Of a DNA stretch of 31,462 nucleotides, positions 17,977-27,916 are shown in pieces. The notes beneath the pieces are model-generated. The model had not been told where the DNA came from and searched no databases. It was given only the letters and a program-made list of their open reading frames with translations. A program made the position numbers and the translations under genes. Each line of letters opens with the position of its first letter. Position 1 is the stretch's first letter. The DNA is from a virus, in IMG/VR virus record IMGVR_UViG_3300035670_011780, positions 1 to 31,462 of that record; one strand, written 5' to 3'.

Positions 17977-18832
17977 AAACGACGGGTACAAAGATTTTGA
18001 ACGAGGTCTTATCCATTTTAAATCAATGTTAGATACTTTTGATGAAGTAACTTATATTGATTGGAATTCACCTGAGGGATCATTTTTTTGGGAAATTCAA
18101 GACGAATTACCTAAAACAGGAAAATTAAAGCATTTTGTAATACCACCTGAAATTGTATCTCAAATCATTATAGATCCTAATGCTCAACAATGTAATGAAA
18201 CTTTAAGTAGAAATATTGGTATTCGTAGAAGTGAATGTGATTGGATTGTTTCAACAAACATAGATATTATTCCTCCTAAACGTGAAGATTTACTTAAATT
18301 AATTGAAACACTAGATCCAAATACTTTTTATACAATTTCTAGACGTGAAGCACCTAAAGAAGTAGTCTATAAACATGGACATAAAAACTGGGAAGCACTT
18401 AGAGAAGAATTGTACAATACAATCCCAGAAAGATACTTCCCAGCAATGGTTACACCAAACGATCATTTCAGTTTAATAAATTGTTGTGGTGATTTCCAAA
18501 TGGCTCCTAAACATGTTTGGGATAAAATTCAAGGATTTGAAGAAGAAATGCTTTACGCTTGTTTTGCAGATACAAATGTGCAGAAAAAAGCAGTATTAAA
18601 TGGGTTTGGTTTAAAAGATTTATATAATCCTCCCTTATTCCATATGGAACATGGAGCTTATTATACTAAAGAAGATGGAACTCGTGTTTCTGACCCTGAA
18701 CATAAAGGAGCTTACACTGGGGATACAAAAGCATATAATGATGCTTGGACATTTGTAGAATGGTTCCAAAATAGTTATAACTCAGATGAATGGGGGCTAG
18801 GAAGTATTGAAATTGAATATGAAACTTGGTAA
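17948..18832 (+). CDS. Putative GT-A-like glycosyltransferase (294 aa)
   Basis: A 294-residue protein with a GT-A-like start (I-G-V-V-V-V-N-R-N-D-G-Y), a charged donor-site stretch W-I-V-S-T-N-I-D-I-I-P-P (99-110, N-x-D in place of DxD), and a C-terminal region rich in aromatic and acidic residues (F-A-D-T-N-V-Q-K-K-A, then H-M-E-H-G-A). The last part matches the acceptor-side H-x-x-H pattern of some GT2-like enzymes. It overlaps the previous gene by 29 nt in another frame. This is the longest overlap here, but a clean ATG and the typical first strand make a frameshift unlikely. It closes the main sugar cassette. Confidence 0.7.
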   Translation: MKIGVVVVNRNDGYKDFERGLIHFKSMLDTFDEVTYIDWNSPEGSFFWEIQDELPKTGKLKHFVIPPEIVSQIIIDPNAQQCNETLSRNIGIRRSECDWIVSTNIDIIPPKREDLLKLIETLDPNTFYTISRREAPKEVVYKHGHKNWEALREELYNTIPERYFPAMVTPNDHFSLINCCGDFQMAPKHVWDKIQGFEEEMLYACFADTNVQKKAVLNGFGLKDLYNPPLFHMEHGAYYTKEDGTRVSDPEHKGAYTGDTKAYNDAWTFVEWFQNSYNSDEWGLGSIEIEYETW

Positions 18833-18837
18833 CTAAA

Positions 18838-18869
18838 TTTGGAATATTAAATTAATTTTATTAAATTTA
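18838..18869 (+). promoter_or_regulatory. Promoter P2 (TTTGG-N19-TAAATTTA)
   Basis: A -33 TTTGG at 18838-18842 and a -7 TAAATTTA at 18862-18869 are separated by 19 nt, the spacing shared by most promoters in this window. It begins 6 nt after the stop of the last gene of the glycan cassette. The next ATG is only 6 nt past the -7 element, so the transcript may have almost no leader. Likely starts the 18876-20909 unit. Confidence 0.7.
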
Positions 18870-18875
18870 CACAAA

Positions 18876-19034
18876 ATGGTATTTGGATTTTATAACAGAA
18901 CAGATAAAACAGAAGAAATTGTTAGTAAAACAGTTGGATTTTCTCGTTTACAAGCTGCTAAATATTTTGCCGCTCGCAAACAATTAGATCTTAAAACATT
19001 TTTAAAACTATATGCAGTTGTTACAATAGTATGA
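18876..19034 (+). CDS. Small hypothetical protein (52 aa)
   Basis: A 52-residue protein reading M-V-F-G-F-Y-N-R-T-D, then a helix S-R-L-Q-A-A-K-Y-F-A-A-R-K-Q and L-K-T-F-L-K-L-Y at the C-terminus. It starts right behind a promoter and its stop overlaps the next start (ATGA). The basic amphipathic helix would suit binding to nucleic acid or another protein. Not recognised. The linkage to both a promoter and the next gene makes it a real gene despite its size. Confidence 0.7.
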   Translation: MVFGFYNRTDKTEEIVSKTVGFSRLQAAKYFAARKQLDLKTFLKLYAVVTIV

Positions 19035-19402
19035 ACCCGTTTGGTAAAAATTTAAATATAAAAAAACGTAATCCTGAATATACTGAAAAGGAAATATTTT
19101 TGGATATTGTTTTAATGGTAGATGAGTGTTGGAAACGAACTCGCCATATGGAGGAGGAAATAGAAATGGGGATGTCTTCATATGAGGAACCATTTTATTT
19201 AGTTATTGAAAATTTAATATTTTTACATTACGGTGAATGGAAAGGTCATATTATTTTGTGGTGGTTGTTTGAACGTTTTAACGATGAAGGCGAATTACTC
19301 CCTATTACTCTTAATGACGATGATGATAAAACATCCGAAGACATTTTAGTTAAAGACCCAGAGGAACTTTGGGCGTTGATTAAAAAAATTGAATTAAAAT
19401 AA
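19031..19402 (+). CDS. Conserved hypothetical protein (123 aa)
   Basis: A 123-residue soluble protein, acidic overall, with a helix rich in Glu/Met (D-E-C-W-K-R-T-R-H-M-E-E-E-I) followed by an aromatic-rich core (L-H-Y-G-E-W-K-G-H-I-I-L-W-W-L-F-E-R-F) and a tail of acidic repeats ending L-W-A-L-I-K-K-I-E. No catalytic motif is seen. It overlaps the previous gene by 4 nt. Unknown function. The opposite-strand frame here is a shadow. Confidence 0.65.
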   Translation: MNPFGKNLNIKKRNPEYTEKEIFLDIVLMVDECWKRTRHMEEEIEMGMSSYEEPFYLVIENLIFLHYGEWKGHIILWWLFERFNDEGELLPITLNDDDDKTSEDILVKDPEELWALIKKIELK

Positions 19403-19422
19403 AGTTATATATAATTATGGTT

Positions 19423-19737
19423 ATGGCAAAGTATTGTATTGGATGTGGTGAACAAATTCATCCTAAACGAGTAGAGATTTTACCCAACACAAAAACTTGT
19501 GTTGAATGCTCAACAACAGGAGCAAAACGAGGTATTCCAGTAATGCATGGAAATGTAGAAAAAGATGACACTTGGGTTGATATGGTGTTCATGGAAGCGG
19601 ACGAATATGAAGCATATGAACGTGCTATGGGGCGTCTAAAACACGTTACACCCAATAAAACCCCTGAATTCCAGGACTATGATGAAGATGATAGTTCAAA
19701 TTCTAATAACACATCATTTGACGAAATAGGAGAATAA
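19423..19737 (+). CDS. DksA/TraR-like C4 zinc-finger protein
   Basis: A 104-residue protein with a DksA/TraR-type zinc finger at the very N-terminus: C5-x2-C8 and C26-x2-C29, in the order C-I-G-C-G-E-Q-I-H-P-K-R-V-E-I-L-P then C-V-E-C. DksA-type proteins bind in the RNA polymerase secondary channel and alter promoter choice, and phage versions are usually short. The coiled-coil arm that normally precedes the finger in DksA is missing, so polymerase control is a guess. The C-terminal half is acidic and Ser/Asn-rich at the end. ATG 19423 (in a GGTTATG context) is preferred over ATG 19417, two codons upstream. Confidence 0.7.
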   Translation: MAKYCIGCGEQIHPKRVEILPNTKTCVECSTTGAKRGIPVMHGNVEKDDTWVDMVFMEADEYEAYERAMGRLKHVTPNKTPEFQDYDEDDSSNSNNTSFDEIGE

Positions 19738-20381
19738 TGCCTAAAGCAAAGCCACTAGGAAAAGAACTTATTTTAGCTGCTATGGCTAAAACTAAATCAA
19801 ATAAGGCAGCAGCTCGTTATTTGAATGTTTCCTATATTCATTACAAGGGATGGGCTAAGCGTTATGAAGCAACCGAACCTGGTTATGCTAATTTATTTGA
19901 GCAGCATAAAAATCAATGTGGTAAAGGTATTCCTAAATTTTTAAGTAATGGTAACCCAAGAAAAGATTTTGCCTTACTAGATTTAATTGAAGGTAGAATT
20001 GACCCGTCTTCATTTAACCCAAATAAAATCAAATATAGATTGTTACAAGAGGGTTATATGAAAGAGGAATGCTATTCGTGTGGTTTCCACGAGCATCGCT
20101 TACTAGACTATAAAATGCCACTTCTAATGCATTTTAAAGATGGAAATAAACAACATTACCGTCTTGATAATCTAGAAATGCTTTGTTATAATTGTTATTT
20201 CCTTCAAATTGGAGACATATTTACCGGAAAACAATTAGAAGGTTTAGAAGAACATTTAGTCAAAAATGAATCTAAAGTCGATTGGGAAGTAGATGATTAT
20301 ACTCAACAACGTCTCATAGAACTAGGATTATATGAATCTAAACCAATTGATGATGGTAGTGAATTAATCTCAAGACTATGA
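19737..20381 (+). CDS. HTH protein with a degenerate HNH-type zinc finger
   Basis: A 214-residue protein. Residues about 20-43 (S-N-K-A-A-A-R-Y-L-N-V-S-Y-I-H-Y-K-G-W) look like a helix-turn-helix. Further on, C112-x2-C115, M-H-F-K-D-G-N (131-137, His132), N145, and C150-x2-C153 follow the layout of an HNH nuclease finger, but the final His is Tyr154 and the first His pair is M-H in place of D-H. The nuclease is therefore probably dead or altered, and the fold may serve as a structural zinc finger. Proteins with this layout look familiar from T4-like phages of aquatic bacteria. A DNA-binding regulator is the best guess. It starts on the stop of the DksA-like gene. Confidence 0.7.
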   Translation: MPKAKPLGKELILAAMAKTKSNKAAARYLNVSYIHYKGWAKRYEATEPGYANLFEQHKNQCGKGIPKFLSNGNPRKDFALLDLIEGRIDPSSFNPNKIKYRLLQEGYMKEECYSCGFHEHRLLDYKMPLLMHFKDGNKQHYRLDNLEMLCYNCYFLQIGDIFTGKQLEGLEEHLVKNESKVDWEVDDYTQQRLIELGLYESKPIDDGSELISRL

Positions 20382-20566
20382 AAAAGAAAAGAGTACCATT
20401 ACTAAGAAAAGGTAAGCATAAAAAACATGATGCTCTTGTTAATGATTTTGATAATCAAAAACAAAAACACCTTGAAAAACTTGCTACTAAAATGTTAGAT
20501 GAGCAAGAAAAACTCAACCAACTTAAATCCAAGAACATAAATACAGACTTTTTAAATTTATTTTAA
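20378..20566 (+). CDS. Small basic coiled-coil protein (62 aa)
   Basis: A 62-residue, strongly basic protein (K-K-K-R-V-P-L-L-R-K-G-K-H-K-K-H at the N-terminus) followed by a helix with heptad-like Leu residues (H-L-E-K-L-A-T-K-M-L-D-E-Q-E-K-L-N-Q-L). Its start overlaps the previous stop. It could bind DNA or RNA through the basic tail and dimerise through the helix. No family recognised. Confidence 0.65.
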   Translation: MKKKRVPLLRKGKHKKHDALVNDFDNQKQKHLEKLATKMLDEQEKLNQLKSKNINTDFLNLF

Positions 20567-20567
20567 T

Positions 20568-20909
20568 ATGGCAGTCGAAATCACAGTACAAAACTCAGAT
20601 GAATTCCAAGAAATGGTCGACAATAAAGACTTTCGCATTTCAGAAGCAGTAGTTAGTGGGATTCTAAAAAATATAAATACCAAAAAAAGACACGTTCATG
20701 TACTTTCTATAGCTTGTATTGAAGACGATGCAATCTATGATATTACTGTTGAACGTAAACATTTTGCTGAAACACTTGAGGAAAATCTTCCCTATTATAT
20801 TAGAGAAGAAAGATATGAAGATTGTCGGGTTATAGCAGACACAATAGATAAGTTAAAAAATCAAGAAATAGGAAACATTATTGAAGATATTACAAAATCT
20901 AAAAAATAA
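20568..20909 (+). CDS. Conserved hypothetical protein (113 aa)
   Basis: A 113-residue protein, one base after the previous gene. An N-terminal beta-like part (E-I-T-V-Q-N, V-H-V-L-S-I-A-C-I) is followed by a helical half with F-A-E-T-L-E-E-N-L-P-Y-Y-I-R-E-E-R-Y-E-D-C. The R-x-E-R-Y-E-D-C-x-x-I-A-D-x-I helix recalls a tetratricopeptide-like or UVR-type hairpin, common in small phage proteins, but the evidence is thin. Last gene of the unit driven by P2; the next promoter starts 2 nt after its stop. Confidence 0.6.
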   Translation: MAVEITVQNSDEFQEMVDNKDFRISEAVVSGILKNINTKKRHVHVLSIACIEDDAIYDITVERKHFAETLEENLPYYIREERYEDCRVIADTIDKLKNQEIGNIIEDITKSKK

Positions 20910-20910
20910 A

Positions 20911-20942
20911 TTTGGTTTCCTAAAATTGGTTTCGTATATTTA
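20911..20942 (+). promoter_or_regulatory. Promoter P3 (TTTGG-N19-TATATTTA)
   Basis: TTTGG at 20911-20915 and TATATTTA at 20935-20942 with 19 nt between them, preceded by the shared TTTCG just upstream of the -7 box. The leader to the ATG at 20963 is 20 nt and ends AAAAGTTATG, the start context seen throughout. Drives the glucosaminidase gene. Confidence 0.8.
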
Positions 20943-20962
20943 CACAAATAAAAATAAAAGTT

Positions 20963-21529
20963 ATGGTATTCTGGAAATTTAACAACAACACTCTTAAGTG
21001 GGAAAAAAACAAACGTAAAACTAGAATTTTTTGGGGAGTAATTACTACTCTAATTATAGGTTCATTTGTTGGAGGACGATTTGCTCGAGTAGAAGCATTA
21101 GAAAGTTTTGAAAAAGAACTACTTATTCTAGATCTTCAACAAGAAAAAAATAAATTTACTCAAGAAAAATTTGTTGATGAATTGAAACGTCTCCATGTAA
21201 AATTTCCTCATATTGTAATGGCTCAATCTATTCTTGAAACGGGACATTGGAAAAGTCAAGTATTTAAAGAAAATCATAATTTGTTTGGAATGAAACAAGC
21301 AAATATTCGAATTAATACTGCTAAAGGTACTAATTTAAATCATGCTTATTATGATAATTGGCAAGAAAGTGTTTATGACTATGCTTTCTACCAGTGCCGT
21401 TATATGGGAGCAGCTAATACTGAAGAAGAATATTTTTTAGCATTAGGAGCTAGTTATGCCGAAGCTGGAAATTATGTTCAAGCACTAAAAACCGTTATCG
21501 CAAAAGAAAAACTTAAAGAATTGTTCTAA
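20963..21529 (+). CDS. Membrane-anchored glucosaminidase (candidate endolysin)
   Basis: A 188-residue protein with a short basic cytoplasmic N-terminus, a single membrane helix (about 21-40, I-F-W-G-V-I-T-T-L-I-I-G-S-F-V-G-G), a linker, and a glucosaminidase (PF01832-type) domain. The catalytic Glu is E92 in Q-S-I-L-E-T-G-H-W, and N-L-F-G-M-K (106-111) is the second hallmark. It would cut the peptidoglycan sugar chain in the periplasm after export by its anchor. The uncleaved-looking helix, rich in Gly/Ser, recalls signal-anchor (possibly signal-arrest-release) endolysins. No holin lies next to it. It could instead act in superinfection or cell-wall remodelling. It has its own promoter. Confidence 0.85.
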   Translation: MVFWKFNNNTLKWEKNKRKTRIFWGVITTLIIGSFVGGRFARVEALESFEKELLILDLQQEKNKFTQEKFVDELKRLHVKFPHIVMAQSILETGHWKSQVFKENHNLFGMKQANIRINTAKGTNLNHAYYDNWQESVYDYAFYQCRYMGAANTEEEYFLALGASYAEAGNYVQALKTVIAKEKLKELF

Positions 21530-21534
21530 TATGT

Positions 21535-21558
21535 ATTAGGGTACGTTTTAACCCTAAT
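21535..21558 (+). terminator. Stem-loop after the glucosaminidase gene
   Basis: ATTAGGGT (21535-21542) and ACCCTAAT (21551-21558) form a perfect 8-bp stem with an 8-nt loop. It starts 6 nt after the stop codon and ends 5 nt before the next ATG. No U-run follows, so it may be a weak terminator, an RNA-stability element, or a translation-control hairpin for the next gene. Confidence 0.55.
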
Positions 21559-21563
21559 CAGTA

Positions 21564-21707
21564 ATGGCAAAATTAAAGTCTCAAACAGTAATCTTAAAAA
21601 AAGATACACCAAAAGTTTCCCGCCCAGGTGTACATGCAAAAACAAAAACAAGTAAATTAAAATCAAGTAAAAACTACCGAAAGTTATATAAAGGTCAAGG
21701 AAAATAA
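21564..21707 (+). CDS. Small basic conserved protein (47 aa)
   Basis: A 47-residue, lysine-rich protein with the stretch P-G-V-H-A-K-T-K-T-S-K-L-K-S-S-K-N-Y and ending Y-K-G-Q-G-K. Very similar small proteins (the H-A-K-T-K-T-S-x-x-K-x-S-K-x-Y motif) are widespread in T4-like phages as unnamed genes, so this is probably a real gene despite its length. The net positive charge suggests binding to RNA or DNA. Function unknown. Confidence 0.7.
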   Translation: MAKLKSQTVILKKDTPKVSRPGVHAKTKTSKLKSSKNYRKLYKGQGK

Positions 21708-21725
21708 AATTAATTAAAATAAGTT

Positions 21726-21857
21726 ATGAGTAAAACAAGCAACCACGCCAAATTAGAATGTTTAAAAGCTTGGACTGAAAGTCGAAAGTTTAAAGCTAAG
21801 AAAAAACCTAAAAAACAACCACTTTGGGTTGTCAATCATGGAAACGATGAAGATTGA
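21726..21857 (+). CDS. Small basic hypothetical protein (43 aa)
   Basis: A 43-residue protein starting in a TAAGTTATG context. It has a basic middle (S-R-K-F-K-A-K-K-K-P-K-K-Q) and an acidic end (N-D-E-D). The next gene starts within its last codons in another frame. Not recognised. The strong start context and tight packing support it. Confidence 0.55.
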   Translation: MSKTSNHAKLECLKAWTESRKFKAKKKPKKQPLWVVNHGNDED

Positions 21858-22020
21858 TGGTAATGCTATTGATTTTTTCAATTCAATTCCAGATGAAATC
21901 TTAGCAAAAATAGCATTTTATGATTGGGAAGCATTAGAGCGATTATGTATCGCTCTTACTCTTGATATTCATTTAATGAATGAATCACTAAGTAATAAAG
22001 ATACAAGTTATAAAGCATGA
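21838..22020 (+). CDS. Small hypothetical protein (60 aa)
   Basis: A 60-residue, acidic, helical protein (S-I-P-D-E-I-L-A-K-I-A-F-Y-D-W-E-A-L-E-R-L). Possible starts are ATG 21838 or ATG 21847; an upstream in-frame TTG (21829) is less likely. I chose 21838, though 21847 would lessen the overlap with the previous gene. Its stop overlaps the FkbM gene start (ATGA), so the two are probably co-translated. Unknown function. Confidence 0.5.
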   Translation: METMKIDGNAIDFFNSIPDEILAKIAFYDWEALERLCIALTLDIHLMNESLSNKDTSYKA

Positions 22021-22973
22021 AAGCCTTTGAAATAATAAGTTATAATTTTAACGAACAACGTTTTGATATCCGTGTTAATCATCTCGTAAAAAAAGGATAT
22101 TTTGTACTCAAAGATATCGATTTAGAAAATACTTTGTACAAGATGGATTTGTGGGATATGAAAGGAGCTATGGATATATTTTTTATCCCTATACCTAAAT
22201 ATACTTTTGATTTTCAACAAGAAGATTTTGGTGGATTTATTCTTGAATTAGTAGATGAAGACATTGTAATTGACAGAGAAATAATGCGTTTGCGTTATAC
22301 TGATATGTACAAATACAAACAAAATCATCTTAATGATTTCTATCATCCTGTATTCGTAAATTATAGAGAATTTTTCCAATGGGATAGATATGGTTGCTTT
22401 AACCTTTCAGGATGTGAAAAAGTAATTGATGCTGGAGCTAGTATTGGTTTATTCACTAAATATATGATGAATAGAGGAGCAAAAGAAATTTATGCTGTAG
22501 AATGTGATGATAGAAGTGTCAAAGCACTTAAAAGTAACTTTGCATTTTATGATGGTGTGAAAATTATCCCTAAAGCATTATACAGTAGCGAAGGTGAAAT
22601 GCAATTGTTTTTTAAAGATGATAATCCATTAGTAGGTAGTTTAGAATTTAATCATAGTGAATTTAAAGATTGGGATCATGTAGCTGATTCAAAAATGGTT
22701 CCTACTATTACTTTAGAAAAATTAGTTCAAGAAACAGGGTGGAATGAAATTGATCTACTTAAATTAGATATTGAAGCTAGTGAATGGGAAGTAATAGCTA
22801 GTACTCCTAACTATGTTTTTGAAATCACAACAAAATTCTTACTAGAATACCACCACCCAGAAGGCAGATTATACGATGTTATAGATAGAATGCGTTCATT
22901 AGGATTTAAACATTGGTTTGAACCAGGGTATAATGAAGAATCTATAAACGGAACTGTATTATTTTACAGATAA
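22017..22973 (+). CDS. FkbM-family SAM methyltransferase
   Basis: A 318-residue protein with an N-terminal domain of about 130 residues and a C-terminal FkbM methyltransferase domain. The SAM site is V-I-D-A-G-A-S-I-G-L-F-T (about 138-149), followed by I-Y-A-V-E-C-D-D and I-D-L-L-K-L-D-I-E-A-S-E-W-E (the D-x-E-G/A-x-E motif of FkbM). FkbM enzymes add O-methyl groups to sugars or polyketides. This one lies 3 kb outside the main sugar cassette but could act on the same glycan. The N-terminal part is unfamiliar, with a W-D-M-K-G-A-M-D-I-F-F segment, and may bind the acceptor. Confidence 0.85.
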   Translation: MKAFEIISYNFNEQRFDIRVNHLVKKGYFVLKDIDLENTLYKMDLWDMKGAMDIFFIPIPKYTFDFQQEDFGGFILELVDEDIVIDREIMRLRYTDMYKYKQNHLNDFYHPVFVNYREFFQWDRYGCFNLSGCEKVIDAGASIGLFTKYMMNRGAKEIYAVECDDRSVKALKSNFAFYDGVKIIPKALYSSEGEMQLFFKDDNPLVGSLEFNHSEFKDWDHVADSKMVPTITLEKLVQETGWNEIDLLKLDIEASEWEVIASTPNYVFEITTKFLLEYHHPEGRLYDVIDRMRSLGFKHWFEPGYNEESINGTVLFYR

Positions 22974-22974
22974 A

Positions 22975-23006
22975 TTTGGAGGGGCGAAAGCCCCTTCGTA
23001 TATTTA
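22975..23006 (+). promoter_or_regulatory. Promoter P4 (TTTGG-N19-TATATTTA)
   Basis: TTTGG at 22975-22979 and TATATTTA at 22999-23006 with a 19-nt spacer. It begins one base after the FkbM stop. The leader runs 19 nt to ATG 23026 and ends AAAGGTTATG. A GC-rich hairpin fills the spacer (listed separately). Confidence 0.8.
22978..22997 (+). terminator. Hairpin inside the P4 spacer
   Basis: GGAGGGGC (22978-22985), loop GAAA, GCCCCTTC (22990-22997): an 8-bp stem with one G-U pair and a GNRA-type tetraloop, unusually GC-rich for this AT-rich DNA. It lies directly after the FkbM stop and inside the promoter spacer, so it may end or stabilise the upstream transcript while its DNA sequence serves as promoter. 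The T-rich tract that follows is short and interrupted. Confidence 0.55.
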
Positions 23007-23025
23007 CCACATAGAAATAAAGGTT

Positions 23026-23487
23026 ATGGCACTTTACAGATTTAGTAATTTAAACAAGTATGGTAATTTTAGGCATCGAATTGTATCTTGGCCTGATAAT
23101 AAGCCATTTTCACATGGTCCTGGTTTTGGTAAAGTAGTTGGTGTACAACGTTTTAAATACGAACATGAACACCATTATATTGCTCCTGCTTTATTTGTTT
23201 CACCTCGTGATGGACAAAAATATATCATTCCAGGATGGCAAAAAGTACATCCTGATACTCAATTAACTGATATTAATTGGGTTAAACCTGAACCTAAAGT
23301 AGTAGAGCAAAAACAAGAACAACTAGCTCCATCTGAATATAAGTTCGAATCAAAAAGCGAACCGGGTAGTTTTTATGTTGTTCGAGTAATAGGCGATAAA
23401 GTCAAATGTAATTGTGCTGGACAATATAGAGCTAAAGATAGACAATGTAAGCACATGAAAGAAGTTAAGCAAAAATTAGGACTATAA
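23026..23487 (+). CDS. SWIM zinc-finger protein (153 aa)
   Basis: A 153-residue protein with a C-terminal SWIM-type finger: C128-x-C130 and C141-x-H143 (K-C-N-C-A-G-Q-Y-R-A-K-D-R-Q-C-K-H-M), the C-x-C-xn-C-x-H pattern of this domain, which binds DNA or proteins. The N-terminal 90 residues are basic and aromatic (R-H-R-I-V-S-W-P, F-K-Y-E-H-E-H-H-Y-I) and not recognised, joined by a Glu/Gln-rich linker. It is transcribed from P4 together with the HNH gene, whose start overlaps its stop by 1 nt. Confidence 0.75.
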   Translation: MALYRFSNLNKYGNFRHRIVSWPDNKPFSHGPGFGKVVGVQRFKYEHEHHYIAPALFVSPRDGQKYIIPGWQKVHPDTQLTDINWVKPEPKVVEQKQEQLAPSEYKFESKSEPGSFYVVRVIGDKVKCNCAGQYRAKDRQCKHMKEVKQKLGL

Positions 23488-23876
23488 TGTGCAGTGTATC
23501 TTGGTGTAATAATGAAACAGAATTTTATAACAAAAAACAACGTTACAAGTACTGTTCAACCCATATCCAGTATAAAAAATATGCTGCTAATGCTCCTGTG
23601 CGTCCTTGGTTGATGTATAAAGTAGAAAAAGTAGTTAGTAATGATTTAGTATGTGAACACTGTGGTTTAGATATGGTTCAACATTATAAAGATACAAACC
23701 TAAAAGCAATCCTTACAGCAATGGATGTTGACCACATTGATTCAACTATTAAAGGTACACCACAAGGTGAACAACCAAGCAATTATCAATTACTTTGTAA
23801 AATGTGTCACATCATTAAGTCATATGATGAAGGTGATTATGTAAATAAAAAATACAAAAAGGATTTGGAATCCTGA
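23487..23876 (+). CDS. HNH endonuclease
   Basis: A 129-residue protein with a complete HNH site: C56-x2-C59 (C-E-H-C-G), V-D-H-I-D with His83, N99 (S-N-Y-Q-L-L-C), and C104-x2-C107-H108. A second cysteine-rich patch at the N-terminus (C2, C7, C23, H26) may hold another zinc. HNH enzymes make single- or double-strand cuts. In phages they act in packaging, as free-standing homing nucleases, or in host-DNA attack. No intron or interrupted target gene is seen nearby, and this one is co-expressed with a SWIM protein. The downstream promoter P5 overlaps its last codons. Confidence 0.85.
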   Translation: MCSVSWCNNETEFYNKKQRYKYCSTHIQYKKYAANAPVRPWLMYKVEKVVSNDLVCEHCGLDMVQHYKDTNLKAILTAMDVDHIDSTIKGTPQGEQPSNYQLLCKMCHIIKSYDEGDYVNKKYKKDLES

Positions 23877-23895
23877 AATCCTGTTCGTATATTCA
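23864..23895 (+). promoter_or_regulatory. Promoter P5 (TTTGG-N19-TATATTCA)
   Basis: TTTGG at 23864-23868, 19-nt spacer with a direct repeat ATCCTG-AA-ATCCTG, -7 TATATTCA at 23888-23895. It starts inside the last codons of the HNH gene. A small inverted repeat GGATT-TGG-AATCC (23861-23873) overlaps the -33. The 26-nt leader ends AAAGGTTATG. Nearly identical in the spacer to P8. Confidence 0.78.
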
Positions 23896-23921
23896 CGACA
23901 TAAGATAAAAAGATAAAGGTT

Positions 23922-24350
23922 ATGACAGAAAAAACAGAACGTAGAGGTAGACCAGCAGAACAACCATTTGTTCAACCCGAAAAATGGACTCGTGAATTCT
24001 ATGAAGTACCAACTAAACCTGAGTTGGGTTACAAAATGACTTATTATTATGATATTAATAAAAGTGCTACAGGTCCTTACAAAACTGAAATTGTTTATCC
24101 TAAAGGTTATAAACACGATAAATTCAAAGCTGAAAAAGGTAAAGCTTATAATAAGCAACCTGTAGTTTTAGTATTTAAAACATCAAATCGTTCAAATGCT
24201 CAAACTAAAATGAAAGTATTTGCAAATGAAAACATTGATTACATCATGTCAGCTGATAAGTTAGTAGGTGTACCTGAATCAGCAGTTATTTTAGAATGTG
24301 GAGTAGGTGAAAGTTTCATTGAAGCTTATAAACTTAAATATTCTCTTTAA
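23922..24350 (+). CDS. Conserved phage hypothetical protein (142 aa)
   Basis: A 142-residue protein with an AT-hook-like basic start (R-R-G-R-P), then a body with alternating strands (M-T-Y-Y-Y-D-I-N, V-L-V-F-K-T-S-N-R-S-N-A-Q-T) and a C-terminal V-I-L-E-C-G-V-G-E-S-F. R-G-R-P is the core that lets AT-hooks bind the minor groove of AT-rich DNA, but one copy alone is weak evidence. Its own promoter (P5) suggests it is needed separately from its neighbours. Unknown function. Confidence 0.65.
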   Translation: MTEKTERRGRPAEQPFVQPEKWTREFYEVPTKPELGYKMTYYYDINKSATGPYKTEIVYPKGYKHDKFKAEKGKAYNKQPVVLVFKTSNRSNAQTKMKVFANENIDYIMSADKLVGVPESAVILECGVGESFIEAYKLKYSL

Positions 24351-24365
24351 TATTTATTAACATAA
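24351..24365 (+). promoter_or_regulatory. Intergenic motif TATTTATTAACATAA
   Basis: A 15-nt sequence just after a stop codon and 10 nt before the next ATG. Fourteen of its 15 bases recur at 26781-26795, again directly upstream of a gene. No TTTGG box lies at the expected -33 position, so this may be a second promoter class (for example middle or late) or a processing or binding site. Confidence 0.45.
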
Positions 24366-24375
24366 AATAAAAAAC

Positions 24376-25068
24376 ATGGCTACAAGAGCATTAATTGGAT
24401 ATATTGAAGACGGAGCGTTAACTGCAACATACAACCACTATGATGGTTATCCTGAAAATTTAGGTAAAGCATTAAATAATTTCTTTAATTCCCCCACGTT
24501 AGCAAAAGATATTGCTAATTATGGATATATTAGTTATATTGATCCTGAAACAGGTGAAATTGAAGCCAAACATAAAGAATCCCCAGATAAACTAAGCCTT
24601 AGAAAATCGGGCGATGAACAAGCTGTATATGATGTAGCATCTTTAATTGATTCATACGGTGCTGATTACGCTTATTTTTATTCTCCTAATGCTGATAAAT
24701 GGGATGTTGTTAAAAATAATGGTATCAATTCTATGGTAGATGCTTTAGAAGGTATTTTATCTAGTGATTTTGATAACACCTATGACGAAGAAGAAATGAA
24801 TGAAGAAACTAAAGATATCAAGGGTCATGTAATGATGTTACTTGATAAGTTAGAATCTAAACTTGGTAAGGACGAAAAAGATAACTTTACAACATATCAA
24901 GAGTCAGTAATGCGTGATGTTAAAGCAGGTGGTACTCGTTTAGGTCAATATGAAGAATTTGATATTGATGCTATGGAAGAAGATTATAAAAACTATATTG
25001 CTGATAAAATGGATTTGGATGAAATATTTGTTCGCCAAATGAAATATAGAGCAGGTATTATAAAATAA
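24376..25068 (+). CDS. Conserved phage hypothetical protein (230 aa)
   Basis: A 230-residue protein. The N-terminus M-A-T-R-A-L-I-G-Y, then Y-N-H-Y-D-G-Y-P-E-N-L-G, is a pattern seen in many unnamed phage proteins. The middle has I-S-Y-I-D-P-E-T-G-E-I-E and A-Y-F-Y-S-P-N-A-D-K-W-D-V-V. The C-terminal third is an acidic helical region. It could be a Ntn-hydrolase-like or adaptor fold, but nothing in it proves a reaction. It is preceded by the TATTTATTAACATAA motif, not by a standard promoter. Confidence 0.7.
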   Translation: MATRALIGYIEDGALTATYNHYDGYPENLGKALNNFFNSPTLAKDIANYGYISYIDPETGEIEAKHKESPDKLSLRKSGDEQAVYDVASLIDSYGADYAYFYSPNADKWDVVKNNGINSMVDALEGILSSDFDNTYDEEEMNEETKDIKGHVMMLLDKLESKLGKDEKDNFTTYQESVMRDVKAGGTRLGQYEEFDIDAMEEDYKNYIADKMDLDEIFVRQMKYRAGIIK

Positions 25069-25073
25069 ATAAA

Positions 25074-25361
25074 ATGAGAAAAGCAGATAACTTTGATGCT
25101 AAACAGTGGTTAGTAGAAAATAAAATTACTACTCAATCTCATTTAAATGAAGGACGTTTTGATGGGTGGGATAGAGATTCTTTAGTTAATTATCTTATAG
25201 AGTTAGCTGATGATTTAAATGAAAATCCACAGCTAGAAAAACAATTGGATAAAATAATGTACCATACAGTAGATATTGAAAACATACATGATTATGATGA
25301 AGAAGATATCCAACAAGCTATTAAACAATTAGAACGTTTAAAACGTTTAGTACAAAAATAA
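25074..25361 (+). CDS. Hypothetical acidic helical protein (95 aa)
   Basis: A 95-residue acidic protein with two or three amphipathic helices (W-L-V-E-N-K-I, D-S-L-V-N-Y-L-I-E-L-A-D-D-L, D-I-Q-Q-A-I-K-Q-L-E-R-L-K-R-L). The C-terminal Leu spacing could allow a coiled coil. No family is recognised. It is 5 nt after the previous gene and its stop lies at a perfect inverted repeat. Confidence 0.6.
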   Translation: MRKADNFDAKQWLVENKITTQSHLNEGRFDGWDRDSLVNYLIELADDLNENPQLEKQLDKIMYHTVDIENIHDYDEEDIQQAIKQLERLKRLVQK

Positions 25362-25379
25362 TTTAGAATCATTCTAAAT
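25361..25379 (+). repeat. Perfect 19-nt inverted repeat (operator or terminator-like)
   Basis: ATTTAGAAT-C-ATTCTAAAT has nine-base arms around one central base. It starts on the last base of a stop codon, 10 nt before the -33 box of P6. The symmetry fits a dimeric repressor site. As RNA it could fold with a short loop but has no T-run after it. Confidence 0.55.
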
Positions 25380-25381
25380 GA

Positions 25382-25412
25382 GGAAGGGATTTGGCTTTGT
25401 CGAATCCCTTTC
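25382..25412 (+). terminator. Hairpin overlapping the P6 -33 box and spacer
   Basis: GGAAGGGATT (25382-25391), loop of 11, AATCCCTTTC (25403-25412): ten base pairs with one G-U. It covers the -33 TTTGG (part in the loop) and most of the spacer of P6, and ends 1 nt before the -7 box. A hairpin as strong as this between two genes may stop or protect upstream RNA. The same DNA also acts as promoter. Confidence 0.55.
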
Positions 25413-25421
25413 GTATATTTA
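25390..25421 (+). promoter_or_regulatory. Promoter P6 (TTTGG-N19-TATATTTA)
   Basis: TTTGG at 25390-25394 and TATATTTA at 25414-25421, 19-nt spacer ending TTTCG. The next ATGs (25426 and 25429) lie only 4-7 nt past the -7 box, so the mRNA is probably leaderless or nearly so. This rules out an in-frame ATG at 25378 as the start. Confidence 0.78.
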
Positions 25422-25425
25422 CCAT

Positions 25426-25563
25426 ATGATGAAAAAGTTAGAAAAGATAGAATTGACAATCCACGAGTGGAACGAAGCTATGCGTATGCCAACTCCACAT
25501 CGTAACAAAAAGAAATACTACAGAAAAGAAAAGCACAAAAAGACTTTGAAATCTGAGGATTAG
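25426..25563 (+). CDS. Small basic hypothetical protein (45 aa)
   Basis: A 45-residue protein, basic in its second half (R-N-K-K-K-Y-Y-R-K-E-K-H-K-K-T), with T-I-H-E-W-N-E-A-M-R-M-P before it. I start it at ATG 25426 because the in-frame ATG at 25378 lies upstream of promoter P6. It is the only gene of the unit before the next promoter. A nucleic-acid-binding role is possible from charge alone. Confidence 0.6.
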   Translation: MMKKLEKIELTIHEWNEAMRMPTPHRNKKKYYRKEKHKKTLKSED

Positions 25564-25575
25564 TTTGTATATTTA
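25545..25575 (+). promoter_or_regulatory. Promoter P7 (TTTG-N19-TATATTTA)
   Basis: TTTGA at 25545-25549 and TATATTTA at 25568-25575. The spacer is one base shorter than in the other copies, and the box before the -7 reads TTTG in place of TTCG. It starts inside the previous gene. A 23-nt leader ends AAAGGTTATG at 25599. Confidence 0.7.
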
Positions 25576-25598
25576 CAATATAAGAAAAAATAAAGGTT

Positions 25599-25955
25599 AT
25601 GTATAATTTTGTTAAAGAAAATCAAGAATTATTTATTGCGTTAGCAAGTATTTTAAACACTAAAGGTGCTAACATGGCTATGGAATGTGAATTTGTTGAT
25701 GGTAATATCAAACAAACCAATCTCCCAGTAATTAGTGGATATGCTGGTCCTGAAGGTGAAGGGTTTTATTTCCGTGCTAGTCGTAGATATTTTGGTATGA
25801 GTGATTTAGAATTTGCTAACTCATTCCCAATTAATATTGATGGTTATACTTTCCGTATGGTTAGTTTTGATGATTCAGATTCAGATGATGATCGTTACTG
25901 GCCTGAATCGGTTTCATTCATAGTAAAAAAAGATGGCAAAAATGTTTTGTCATAA
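25599..25955 (+). CDS. Hypothetical protein (118 aa)
   Basis: A 118-residue acidic protein with its own promoter. It begins with a helix (F-V-K-E-N-Q-E-L-F-I-A-L-A-S-I-L) and continues with beta-like stretches (G-Y-A-G-P-E-G-E-G-F-Y-F-R-A-S-R-R-Y-F-G) and an Asp/Ser-rich loop (D-D-S-D-S-D-D-D). Not recognised. An acidic loop of this kind can mimic DNA, but this is speculation. Confidence 0.6.
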   Translation: MYNFVKENQELFIALASILNTKGANMAMECEFVDGNIKQTNLPVISGYAGPEGEGFYFRASRRYFGMSDLEFANSFPINIDGYTFRMVSFDDSDSDDDRYWPESVSFIVKKDGKNVLS

Positions 25956-25956
25956 A

Positions 25957-25988
25957 TTTGGAGACCTGAAATCCTGTTCGTATATTTA
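25957..25988 (+). promoter_or_regulatory. Promoter P8 (TTTGG-N19-TATATTTA)
   Basis: TTTGG at 25957-25961 and TATATTTA at 25981-25988, spacer of 19 nt that differs from P5 in only two positions. The transcribed leader shares CATAAGATAA with P5, and ATG 26013 follows AATAAGTT. It begins one base after the upstream stop. Confidence 0.8.
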
Positions 25989-26012
25989 CCCCATAAGATA
26001 AGACAATAAGTT

Positions 26013-26405
26013 ATGAAAAACACAAACAAATCAATTTTGACAGCTGAGTGGTTAACAATCAAATCAATGTATGAAGCCGGTACTAATGGCTCAAACAAAT
26101 ATGGGACCAATTTTCCAATTGATGGTGAATTAGACCAACTTACAATGAATTTTATTGACAAAATTGGAGACCTGACCAACAAAATGGGCTTCGAATGTGT
26201 CATTGATGGTGTCCATATGAACTTGTGGAAAGAACGTATTTGGTCACTTGTTGAAAATGCTGGTCTTCTTCCGGAAATTGCTTGGAAAGATGAGTTGGCT
26301 GATGAAGAAGCCGAAATCAAAGACAATTGGTACTCAGATGAAGATGAGTTTGATGCTGATTTGGAAGCTCAAAGTTATGAAGTATTTGGTCTAAATAAAA
26401 TTTAA
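26013..26405 (+). CDS. Acidic hypothetical protein (130 aa)
   Basis: A 130-residue protein with a strongly acidic C-terminus (D-E-L-A-D-E-E-A-E-I-K-D-N-W-Y-S-D-E-D-E-F-D-A-D-L-E written residue by residue). The first half is mixed, with L-T-A-E-W-L-T-I-K-S-M-Y-E-A-G and a W-K-E-R-I-W-S-L-V-E-N-A helix. No known domain is recognised. The frame on the opposite strand is a shadow. The acidic tail could act as a DNA mimic or bind a basic partner. Confidence 0.65.
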   Translation: MKNTNKSILTAEWLTIKSMYEAGTNGSNKYGTNFPIDGELDQLTMNFIDKIGDLTNKMGFECVIDGVHMNLWKERIWSLVENAGLLPEIAWKDELADEEAEIKDNWYSDEDEFDADLEAQSYEVFGLNKI

Positions 26406-26407
26406 TT

Positions 26408-26545
26408 ATGAGCCCCGAAATAAAAGAACGTTTGTATAGAGAATTAATGCAGATGTTAATATTACTTGAAGAAGGTAATGTTCGGGAAACAAAAATTGAA
26501 CTTGAAGATTTGATTAACCGTTTGAAATATGACAAATTAGTTTAA
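26408..26545 (+). CDS. Small hypothetical protein (45 aa)
   Basis: A 45-residue helical, acidic protein (I-K-E-R-L-Y-R-E-L-M-Q-M-L-I-L-L-E-E-G-N, then I-E-L-E-D-L-I-N-R-L-K). The regular Leu/Ile spacing would suit a two-helix hairpin. It begins 2 nt after the previous gene and ends flush with the Smr gene. No family recognised. Confidence 0.6.
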   Translation: MSPEIKERLYRELMQMLILLEEGNVRETKIELEDLINRLKYDKLV

Positions 26546-26773
26546 ATGAAACCAAAAGTCGAGCTTGATCTACATGGTATTAAACATCAAGATGTAGAAC
26601 ATACTTTAGAAAATTTCTTTTTGTGGGAAACTAAAAATCAAAAACAACTTATTGAAGTTATTACTGGTAGGTCTCCACAAATGCAACAAATTGTTACAAA
26701 ATGGCTTGATAAATATGAATTTTCTTATTACATTCCTGCACATAACACAGGAGTTATATATGTGAATAGTTAA
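26546..26773 (+). CDS. Stand-alone Smr-domain protein (75 aa)
   Basis: A 75-residue Smr domain with nothing else attached. The hallmark L-D-L-H-G (7-11) is followed by a helix, the strand I-E-V-I-T-G-R-S, where the usual G-K-G loop reads G-R-S, and a final strand with N-T-G-V-I-Y-V. Smr domains (named after MutS2) are nucleases or nucleic-acid binders acting on DNA branches or RNA. D-L-H-G is retained, but the altered loop may change activity. Starts flush with the previous stop. Confidence 0.78.
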   Translation: MKPKVELDLHGIKHQDVEHTLENFFLWETKNQKQLIEVITGRSPQMQQIVTKWLDKYEFSYYIPAHNTGVIYVNS

Positions 26774-26780
26774 TTTAATA

Positions 26781-26795
26781 TATTTATTACCATAA
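26781..26795 (+). promoter_or_regulatory. Intergenic motif TATTTATTACCATAA
   Basis: Second copy of the motif found at 24351-24365, matching at 14 of 15 positions and again just after a stop codon (8 nt) and before a gene (11 nt). It overlaps a TATATTTA-like string (26779-26786), but no TTTGG box lies at the matching -33 position. It may start transcription of the glycosyltransferase downstream. Confidence 0.45.
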
Positions 26796-26806
26796 CAGTT
26801 ATTTAA

Positions 26807-27916
26807 ATGAAGTTTAGTATAAGCACATCGTTTTATAAAAGAAGTGATAGGGTACAATATTTGTATCAACAAATTCTAGATCAAACTTATACTAACTGGG
26901 AATGGATTGTTACAGATGATTTTTCTGAAGAAAATAATGCTGAACAACTACTCAAAGAAATCTGTGAAAAAGATCCTCGAGTAAAGTATTATCACCAATC
27001 ACGTAAAAAAGAATGTTTTTATAACCCACAACGAGGTGCTAGTGGAGATATAATTGTGATGTTAGATAGTGATGACTATGCTTTCCCCAAACTACTAGAA
27101 ACCTACTATAATTTTCTTTCTAAACACCCAGAAATAATGGGGGTAAGTTGTTTATCTAATACGATAAATGAAGAAGGTATATTTGTTGAGATTCAAGGTA
27201 GTGGTACTTATAAAAGTGGAGATTCCCCTACTTTTAACTATACTCCTATGAGTAGAGCATTTAGAAACATTTATCCTGAGTTCGATAATGGTGTTTTAAA
27301 ATGGTATCAAAATGATACTAATATTGTTCGTCATATGGAATTTTTAGGTAAGTGGTTTTACCTTCCCAGAACATTGTGTGATTATTATTATTCTGAAGAT
27401 ACATTTTCAAGAAAAGATCGACCTAGTGAAGATTGGGAAGATGTTACTAGAGAAAGAATGTTTATTGAGTCTAAATTTCCTTCATTACATGATGAAGATA
27501 AATGTTCTCAATTTCTTTATTTTTTACCTATAGAAACCTTAGCTAGAGATTTTGCAATTGGAGATTTTAATAGGTCTACTACACGTAAAAATATACTCTA
27601 TATTAACTCGGAGTTAAAATTATACGAAAAACAATTATTGAAAGAATTATTTTTTGATCATAATTTATATTTCAAATCTGATTTGGATATGAAATTTGAT
27701 GAAATTATAGTTGCTTTAAATCCATTAACTTGTAAAAATTTACCTGAAGTTAGTAAACCGTTGGTAAAAACAAATAAACATACTCATGTTAAATTTAGAT
27801 TAGATATAAGAACTGAGTTGAATTTAAATGAAATTCAAGAACTTATTATATTATTGTATAAAAGTTATGGTTGGAAAAATTGTGGATATGAATATTATTT
27901 TAATACAGCAGTATGA
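26807..27916 (+). CDS. Glycosyltransferase, family 2 (GT-A fold) with extra C-terminal domain
   Basis: A 369-residue protein. Residues 1-200 form a GT2 domain: S-I-S-T-S-F-Y-K-R-S-D (4-14), V-T-D-D (35-38) for the nucleotide, and M-L-D-S-D-D (85-90) for the metal and donor. R-G-A-S-G-D-I-I-V before it is the usual GT2 lead-in. The last 150 residues have no recognised motif and may bind the acceptor. It stands apart from the main sugar cassette, behind the TATTTATTACCATAA motif, so it may act at another stage or on another target. Overlaps the next gene by 4 nt. Confidence 0.88.
   Translation: MKFSISTSFYKRSDRVQYLYQQILDQTYTNWEWIVTDDFSEENNAEQLLKEICEKDPRVKYYHQSRKKECFYNPQRGASGDIIVMLDSDDYAFPKLLETYYNFLSKHPEIMGVSCLSNTINEEGIFVEIQGSGTYKSGDSPTFNYTPMSRAFRNIYPEFDNGVLKWYQNDTNIVRHMEFLGKWFYLPRTLCDYYYSEDTFSRKDRPSEDWEDVTRERMFIESKFPSLHDEDKCSQFLYFLPIETLARDFAIGDFNRSTTRKNILYINSELKLYEKQLLKELFFDHNLYFKSDLDMKFDEIIVALNPLTCKNLPEVSKPLVKTNKHTHVKFRLDIRTELNLNEIQELIILLYKSYGWKNCGYEYYFNTAV

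Follow-up and report, generated by a model that had tools for sequence, protein, structure and literature searches.

The window analysed here is the complete IMG/VR virus record IMGVR_UViG_3300035670_011780 (31,462 bases, 31% GC), which encodes GroEL, a T4-type clamp loader and thymidylate synthase, together with a run of genes resembling sugar-modifying enzymes. Its accessory region contains seven copies of a promoter-like element with a -33 and a -7 box, which an earlier reading of the sequence (hereafter the original prediction) had described as near-identical promoters. Comparison with related phages points to a real, conserved, clade-wide promoter family. The predicted elements are as follows, with matrix scores as defined below and L labels for related loci:

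18838..18870, + strand: weak degenerate member, TTTGG-N19-TAAATTTAC without TTCG; score 8.9, orthologous sites 1.4-12.3
20911..20943, + strand: promoter TTTGG-N15-TTCG-TATATTTAC; score 37.7, orthologues in L013, L014, L018 and L019 31-44
22975..23007, + strand: promoter with a hairpin-filled spacer, before the 153-amino-acid gene at 23026; score 39.3, nine orthologous sites 24-42
22978..22997, + strand: perfect 8-bp hairpin GGAGGGGC-GAAA-GCCCCTTC in the 22975 spacer, one G-T pair
23860..23882, + strand: possible hairpin surrounding the -33 box, AGGATTT...AAATCCT, read from the sequence and weaker than the other two
23864..23896, + strand: promoter with TATATTCAC, before the 142-amino-acid gene at 23922; score 42.6, orthologues 25-43
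25382..25412, + strand: terminator-like hairpin GGAAGGGATTTGGCTTTGTCGAATCCCTTTC enclosing the -33 TTTGG; 14 pairs, strongest of the scanned stretch
25390..25422, + strand: promoter before the 43-amino-acid open reading frame at 25426; score 36.8, L009 39, L016 32
25545..25576, + strand: variant promoter TTTGA-N18-TATATTTAC, before the 118-amino-acid gene at 25599; score 20.0
25957..25989, + strand: top-scoring promoter, before the 130-amino-acid gene at 26013; score 44.3, orthologues 30-43

A conserved family of sites

Related phages, and not the window, supplied the 94 non-redundant copies for a matrix of 34 columns, which was scanned over the window against a background of 12 Markov-shuffled windows. 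The top seven positions were exactly the seven reported sites, all on the + strand, and only these rose above the best shuffled window (4.7); the next-best real position scored -0.4. The strict pattern TTTGG-N17-20-TATATTTA gave four matches in the window against 0.03 expected. The seven-copy family is thus borne out, although its members are less uniform than had been claimed: the match is full in five, variant in 25545 and weak in 18838. A 19-nt spacer, 18 nt in 25545, holds as described, and an AC follows the -7 box in all seven sites, which also share an A at -5. The TTTGG at -33 is common to most copies but is TTTGA in 25545; the TTCG before the -7 box is present in five of seven, with TTTG in 25545 and TTAT in 18838. 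The -7 box itself, presented as invariant, is TATATTTA in five copies, TATATTCA in 23864 and TAAATTTA in 18838. Because the relatives' copies of 18838 are weak too, we regard that site as a degenerate member at best.

The sites end 3-25 nt before a start codon. At 18838 the ATG (18876) lies 5 nt past the site, so that the mRNA would be almost leaderless; at 25390 it lies 3 nt past the box, the same distance as in L009 and L016, and the transcript would again be leaderless or nearly so. The gene behind 20911 is a lysis gene (glucosaminidase, Pfam PF01832) at 20963, and the 23864 promoter overlaps the end of an HNH gene. Promoter-bearing orthologues of 25545 keep the full form, with scores of 35-41.

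A protein search returned 80 related loci. Across the clade the motif reads TTTGG-N15-TTCG-TATATT(T/C)AC, a near-invariant 33-bp element; in related phages its sites lie on the gene strand only, with the control near zero. A TTTG-N20 spacing was found in 173 of 200 copies. The search pattern behind these 173 required TATATT and restricted -5 to A or G. Within the set, the last position of TTTGG is a G in 97%, an A precedes the box in 87%, each letter of TTCG is kept in 87-93%, and A stands at -5 in 98%. With no restriction at -5, 110 of 119 sites had A there and two had G, and TTG-N20 was the dominant spacing.

Flavobacterium phage immuto (TerL 59%) is the closest isolate and shares with the window the gene order GroEL, PD-(D/E)XK nuclease, glycosyltransferases. 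Since immuto infects Flavobacterium and its gene order matches, a Bacteroidota host is likely for the window virus. The same architecture recurs about 30 times in immuto, and 34 of its 35 matches to TTG-N20-TATMTTTR end in A. Its repeated promoters resemble those of the window clade in TTG-N20-TATMTTTA and in their spacer hairpins, which are followed by T-tracts, and differ at -33, where most lack the first T and read TTGC or TTGG. Cellulophaga phage phiST (NC_020842.1) likewise has TTG-N20-TATMTTTA, with TTGT at -33; 25 of its 27 matches (e.g., 74146-76688) end in A. Unlike the window clade, phiST does not seem to be T4-like, judging by its size and record, and because it belongs to another lineage these matches indicate that the A-ending -7 box extends beyond T4-like phages. 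The nine matches in Bacteroides crAss001 all end in G. To our knowledge the repeated promoters of immuto and phiST, found here by pattern, have not been described.

Contrast with host promoters

Bacteroidota primary-sigma (sigma-ABfr) promoters are given as TTTG / TAnnTTTG in two studies (PMC6847099, PMC9723704). In F. johnsoniae the -5 position is near-invariant as G and the signal at -33 is slight (PMC6847099). For the sigma motifs of F. psychrophilum, the text makes no mention of one that ends in A (PMC9723704). The phage sites resemble sigma-ABfr promoters in a -33 TTTG at the usual distance, a -7 box that starts with TA, a correctly placed TT and short predicted leaders. They depart from them in the A that replaces the near-invariant G at -5, which takes the box outside TAnnTTTG, in the TTCG before the -7 box, in a strict -33 box (weak in hosts), and in TTG-N20 as opposed to a mostly N19 host spacing (111 of 150 among the Flavobacteriaceae matches listed, with N20 allowed). 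The original prediction had noted a Bacteroidota likeness that fails at the last -7 base, and the A at -5 is indeed a consistent difference.

Genome counts agree with this contrast. In 60 Flavobacteriaceae genomes TTTG-N19/20-TATATTTGC occurred 497 times against 39 in the reversed control (13-fold), whereas TTTG-N19/20-TATATTTAC occurred 94 times against 87 and was not enriched. The phage form gave at most two matches per genome in 395 Bacteroidota genomes, near control level, and the strict motif was present in only 29 stretches of GTDB contigs, several of which were small multi-copy contigs, phage-like in appearance. On the counts from the 60 and the 395 genomes we reject a plain host-type promoter. 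In the phages themselves no promoter of host type is conspicuous.

L135 and L139 have many motif copies on contigs binned in metagenome-assembled genomes named Candidatus Pelagibacter and Flavobacteriales; both look like phage contigs by appearance, and at least L135 looks misbinned. Microcystis phage Mel-JY01 (PP395634.1), filed under the cyanobacterium Microcystis, has a TerL 51% identical to that of the window clade and 16 Bacteroidota-type matches to TTG-N20-TATMTTTR, most with a TTTG end (e.g., 129519, 129923, 143674); its real host may be a Bacteroidota companion in the Microcystis culture. A more distant 268-kb relative, G005 (L177-L184), has the TATTTATA box in common with the window clade, shows enrichment of TATCTTTG, a -7 box of host type, and has a few TTTGG...TTCGTATATTTAT sites.

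Copies with a terminator-like hairpin

A subset of copies combines the promoter with a hairpin, a feature that the original prediction overlooked. We folded 118 non-redundant sites, some of them loosely matching, from 14 nt before TTTGG through the end of TTCG. The mean fold energy was -6.2 kcal/mol against -3.9 with permuted columns (z -11.7, under a null that ignores relatedness), and 25 of the 118, about a fifth, reached -8 kcal/mol or lower against 5.9 in permuted sets. A hairpin in every copy was considered and dropped, as only a subset has one. Two layouts recur: in one, the -33 TTGG lies inside the 5' arm of a terminator-like hairpin (GAGGGGATTTGGCTTAGCCAGATCCCCTTC; GAGAGAGATTTGGGATCCTGAATCTCTCTTC; GAACAAGGGTTGGATTTGTCAACTCTTGTTC), and in the other the spacer is filled by a GNRA hairpin (GGAGCCCC-GAAA-GGGGCTTC). 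Stems of unrelated sequence occupy the same place and are still complementary, which suggests that selection acts on pairing; these long stems are stronger evidence than the z value.

The clear composite cases in the window are 22975 and 25390. Counterparts of the 22978 hairpin in L030, L083, L120 and L121 have GCCCC-GAAA-GGGGC and other complementary stems. The possible hairpin at 23860..23882 was not among the terminator scan results, and Rfam gave no match to a structured RNA in 18000-27000. In a sub-clade around G013 (L089-L097; e.g., 53335, 53605, 59322) a small conserved hairpin-like leader stretch (GGGGTAAATGAGGCATGAAGCC, GGGTGCAAGCCC) directly follows the promoter, and its arms vary yet stay complementary.

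Two promoter classes and a sigma-like protein

Gaps between genes were counted in three long relatives (164, 150 and 158 kb), giving 100 non-structural and 51 structural gaps. TCGTATAT was present in 42 of the 100 gaps before replication and accessory genes (0.5 expected), and ATATTTAT/TATTTATA in 24 of the 51 before structural genes (1.5 expected). The family is thus concentrated in the replication and accessory part of these genomes, in keeping with the earlier proposal that its copies split the accessory region into units. The TATTTATA boxes, a class that had been missed, immediately precede late genes, portal and sheath among them, and no -33 box is apparent there.

Start contexts were also seen to recur. 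In the window, AATAAAGGTTATG or AAAAGTTATG is common to the starts of the genes behind four of the promoters (at 20943-20965, 23007-23028, 23896-23924 and 25577-25601), and in the relatives' non-structural gaps ATAAAGGT occurs in 20 of 100 against 1.7 expected.

T4-type late promoters consist of TATAAATA and are read by gp55. The clade resembles this system in owning a separate late box, TATTTATA, without a -33 element, plus a putative gp55-like sigma; the reported sites differ from it in their -33 box and their location outside the structural genes. The putative sigma is a conserved protein with a Pfam Sigma70_r2 domain in 19 of 19 members scanned (e.g., G013:74198-75007, or L161:1384-2196; gp118 of immuto, L187:31204-31860, annotated hypothetical), and at least 597 stretches of viral contigs encode it. 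Its structure model is of moderate confidence (predicted local distance difference test 66). The best fold matches of the model are all sigma factors, with moderate scores, and its first 118 residues align to sigma region 2 at Z 8-10, a level that helical proteins can reach by chance. It had no match in the PHROG scan or the PDB sequence search, and none in Foldseek at E 0.001 or better. The Pfam region 2 in all members, the moderate model and the region 2 fold alignments are the basis for its assignment as a sigma. The protein is most simply a candidate late sigma and reader of the TATTTATA class.

Late-type boxes ATATTTATT also occur in the window at 24350 and 26780, before the genes at 24376 and 26807; since they do, the accessory region may be read late as well. 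Several relatives retain a TATTTATA or TATTTATT box upstream of the 230-amino-acid gene.

Conservation and likeness to PeSLs

Between relatives, spacers and hairpin types vary at orthologous junctions; the boxes are retained. Promoter 20911 is still present in L009 and L016, where its lysis gene was not found, and G013 (53335, 53605) and immuto (70979, 71249) each have a pair of near-identical copies at a distance of 270 bp. Promoter early stem-loops (PeSLs) of T4-like phages (Arbiol 2010; Comeau 2014, as summarised in PMC4503421) offer the nearest parallel. T4 core genes in the three long relatives and the clamp loader of the window place the clade in the same T4-like setting; in the summary of PeSLs, promoter and terminator stem-loop share one short inter-gene element at accessory genes, in association with gene shuffling, and about a fifth of the copies here, two window sites included, may be of the same make. 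The persistence of the boxes and the neighbouring copies fit a PeSL-like module-shuffling role, without being proof of one. Set against PeSLs as summarised there, the window clade uses Bacteroidota-type boxes and not sigma-70 boxes, builds its stem from the -33 box or the -33/-7 spacer, and has a strong stem in only about a fifth of copies. The -7 base and the spacing are new, and the hairpin layout may be new as well; the overall kind is already known from T4-like phages.

Which polymerase reads the sites

We consider it probable that the sites are early (or early/middle) promoters of a T4-like Bacteroidota phage clade, some with a putative woven-in terminator, and that they are read by the host polymerase. 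The early timing is inferred from genome position only. Three observations favour host RNA polymerase as the probable reader: the A-ending box recurs in the unrelated flavophage phiST, these genomes show no conspicuous promoter of host type, and the phage box retains five of the six -7 positions that are near-invariant in hosts. In such a scheme, host core RNA polymerase with the primary sigma (sigma-ABfr), perhaps altered by infection, would bind TTTGG and TATATT(T/C)A and start about 5 nt downstream of the -7 box, giving short leaders, often with a AATAAAGGTTATG end. At composite copies, RNA from the gene upstream would form a hairpin in the spacer region and end there, so that one element would close one unit and open the next, as in T4 PeSLs.

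Several points weigh against this interpretation. An A takes the place of the G that hosts keep near-invariant at -5 (110 of 119 sites), and because of this change and the lack of enrichment in host genomes an unmodified host sigma may read the A-ending form poorly. The T-tract after the stem is short in the window clade (TTCGTATATTT), so that termination there is uncertain, and a strong hairpin is absent from most copies. The z value of the folding test is too favourable, as permutation keeps column make-up and not relatedness and loose sites were included.

A phage-dependent middle class is a serious rival, if in our judgement an unlikely one: the sites would need a phage product, either a phage sigma or a protein that binds the -33 box or appropriates sigma, as T4 MotA/AsiA do, and the A at -5 would make them poor for the unmodified host holoenzyme. 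Both that A and the strict TTG-N20 are foreign to the host by the counts above, and the phages encode a conserved sigma-like protein. Yet host RNA polymerase must transcribe something first and no host-type promoter offers itself, phiST has the same A-ending box without being related, and the sigma-like protein most simply serves the TATTTATA late class. That the repeats are mainly recombination or mobile elements (module joints), with promoter activity secondary or absent, seems very improbable; the near-identical neighbouring copies and the swapping of genes between promoters would suit it, but invariance is confined to the two boxes and the distance between them and does not extend to the spacer sequence, and the sites stop just short of start codons. 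T4-type late promoters read by the gp55-like sigma, a single -10 box upstream of structural genes without a -35 element, we reject as scarcely credible: the core TATATTTA does resemble the late box and such a sigma is encoded, but the strict -33 box, the position outside the structural part and the different box, TATTTATA, that precedes the structural genes all count against them.

Returning to early promoters read by the host enzyme, we raise a further and doubtful idea, that unrelated Flavobacteriaceae phages converged on a host-unused TATMTT(T/C)A with TTG-N20 because infection shifts the preference of the holoenzyme from G to A at -5. If true, this would amount to a general takeover switch that can be read from the sequence, and should a changed holoenzyme underlie the A at -5, host takeover in Flavobacteriaceae becomes directly testable.

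In the literature searched we found no account of promoter grammar for this Bacteroidota phage group, and for Bacteroidota phages in general little seems to have been written on the subject. The present analysis gives one clade a two-class promoter map drawn from sequence only. Its -7 box separates phage from host transcription, its putative fusion of terminator and promoter is compact, and the motif provides a marker by which metagenomic contigs can be assigned to the clade.

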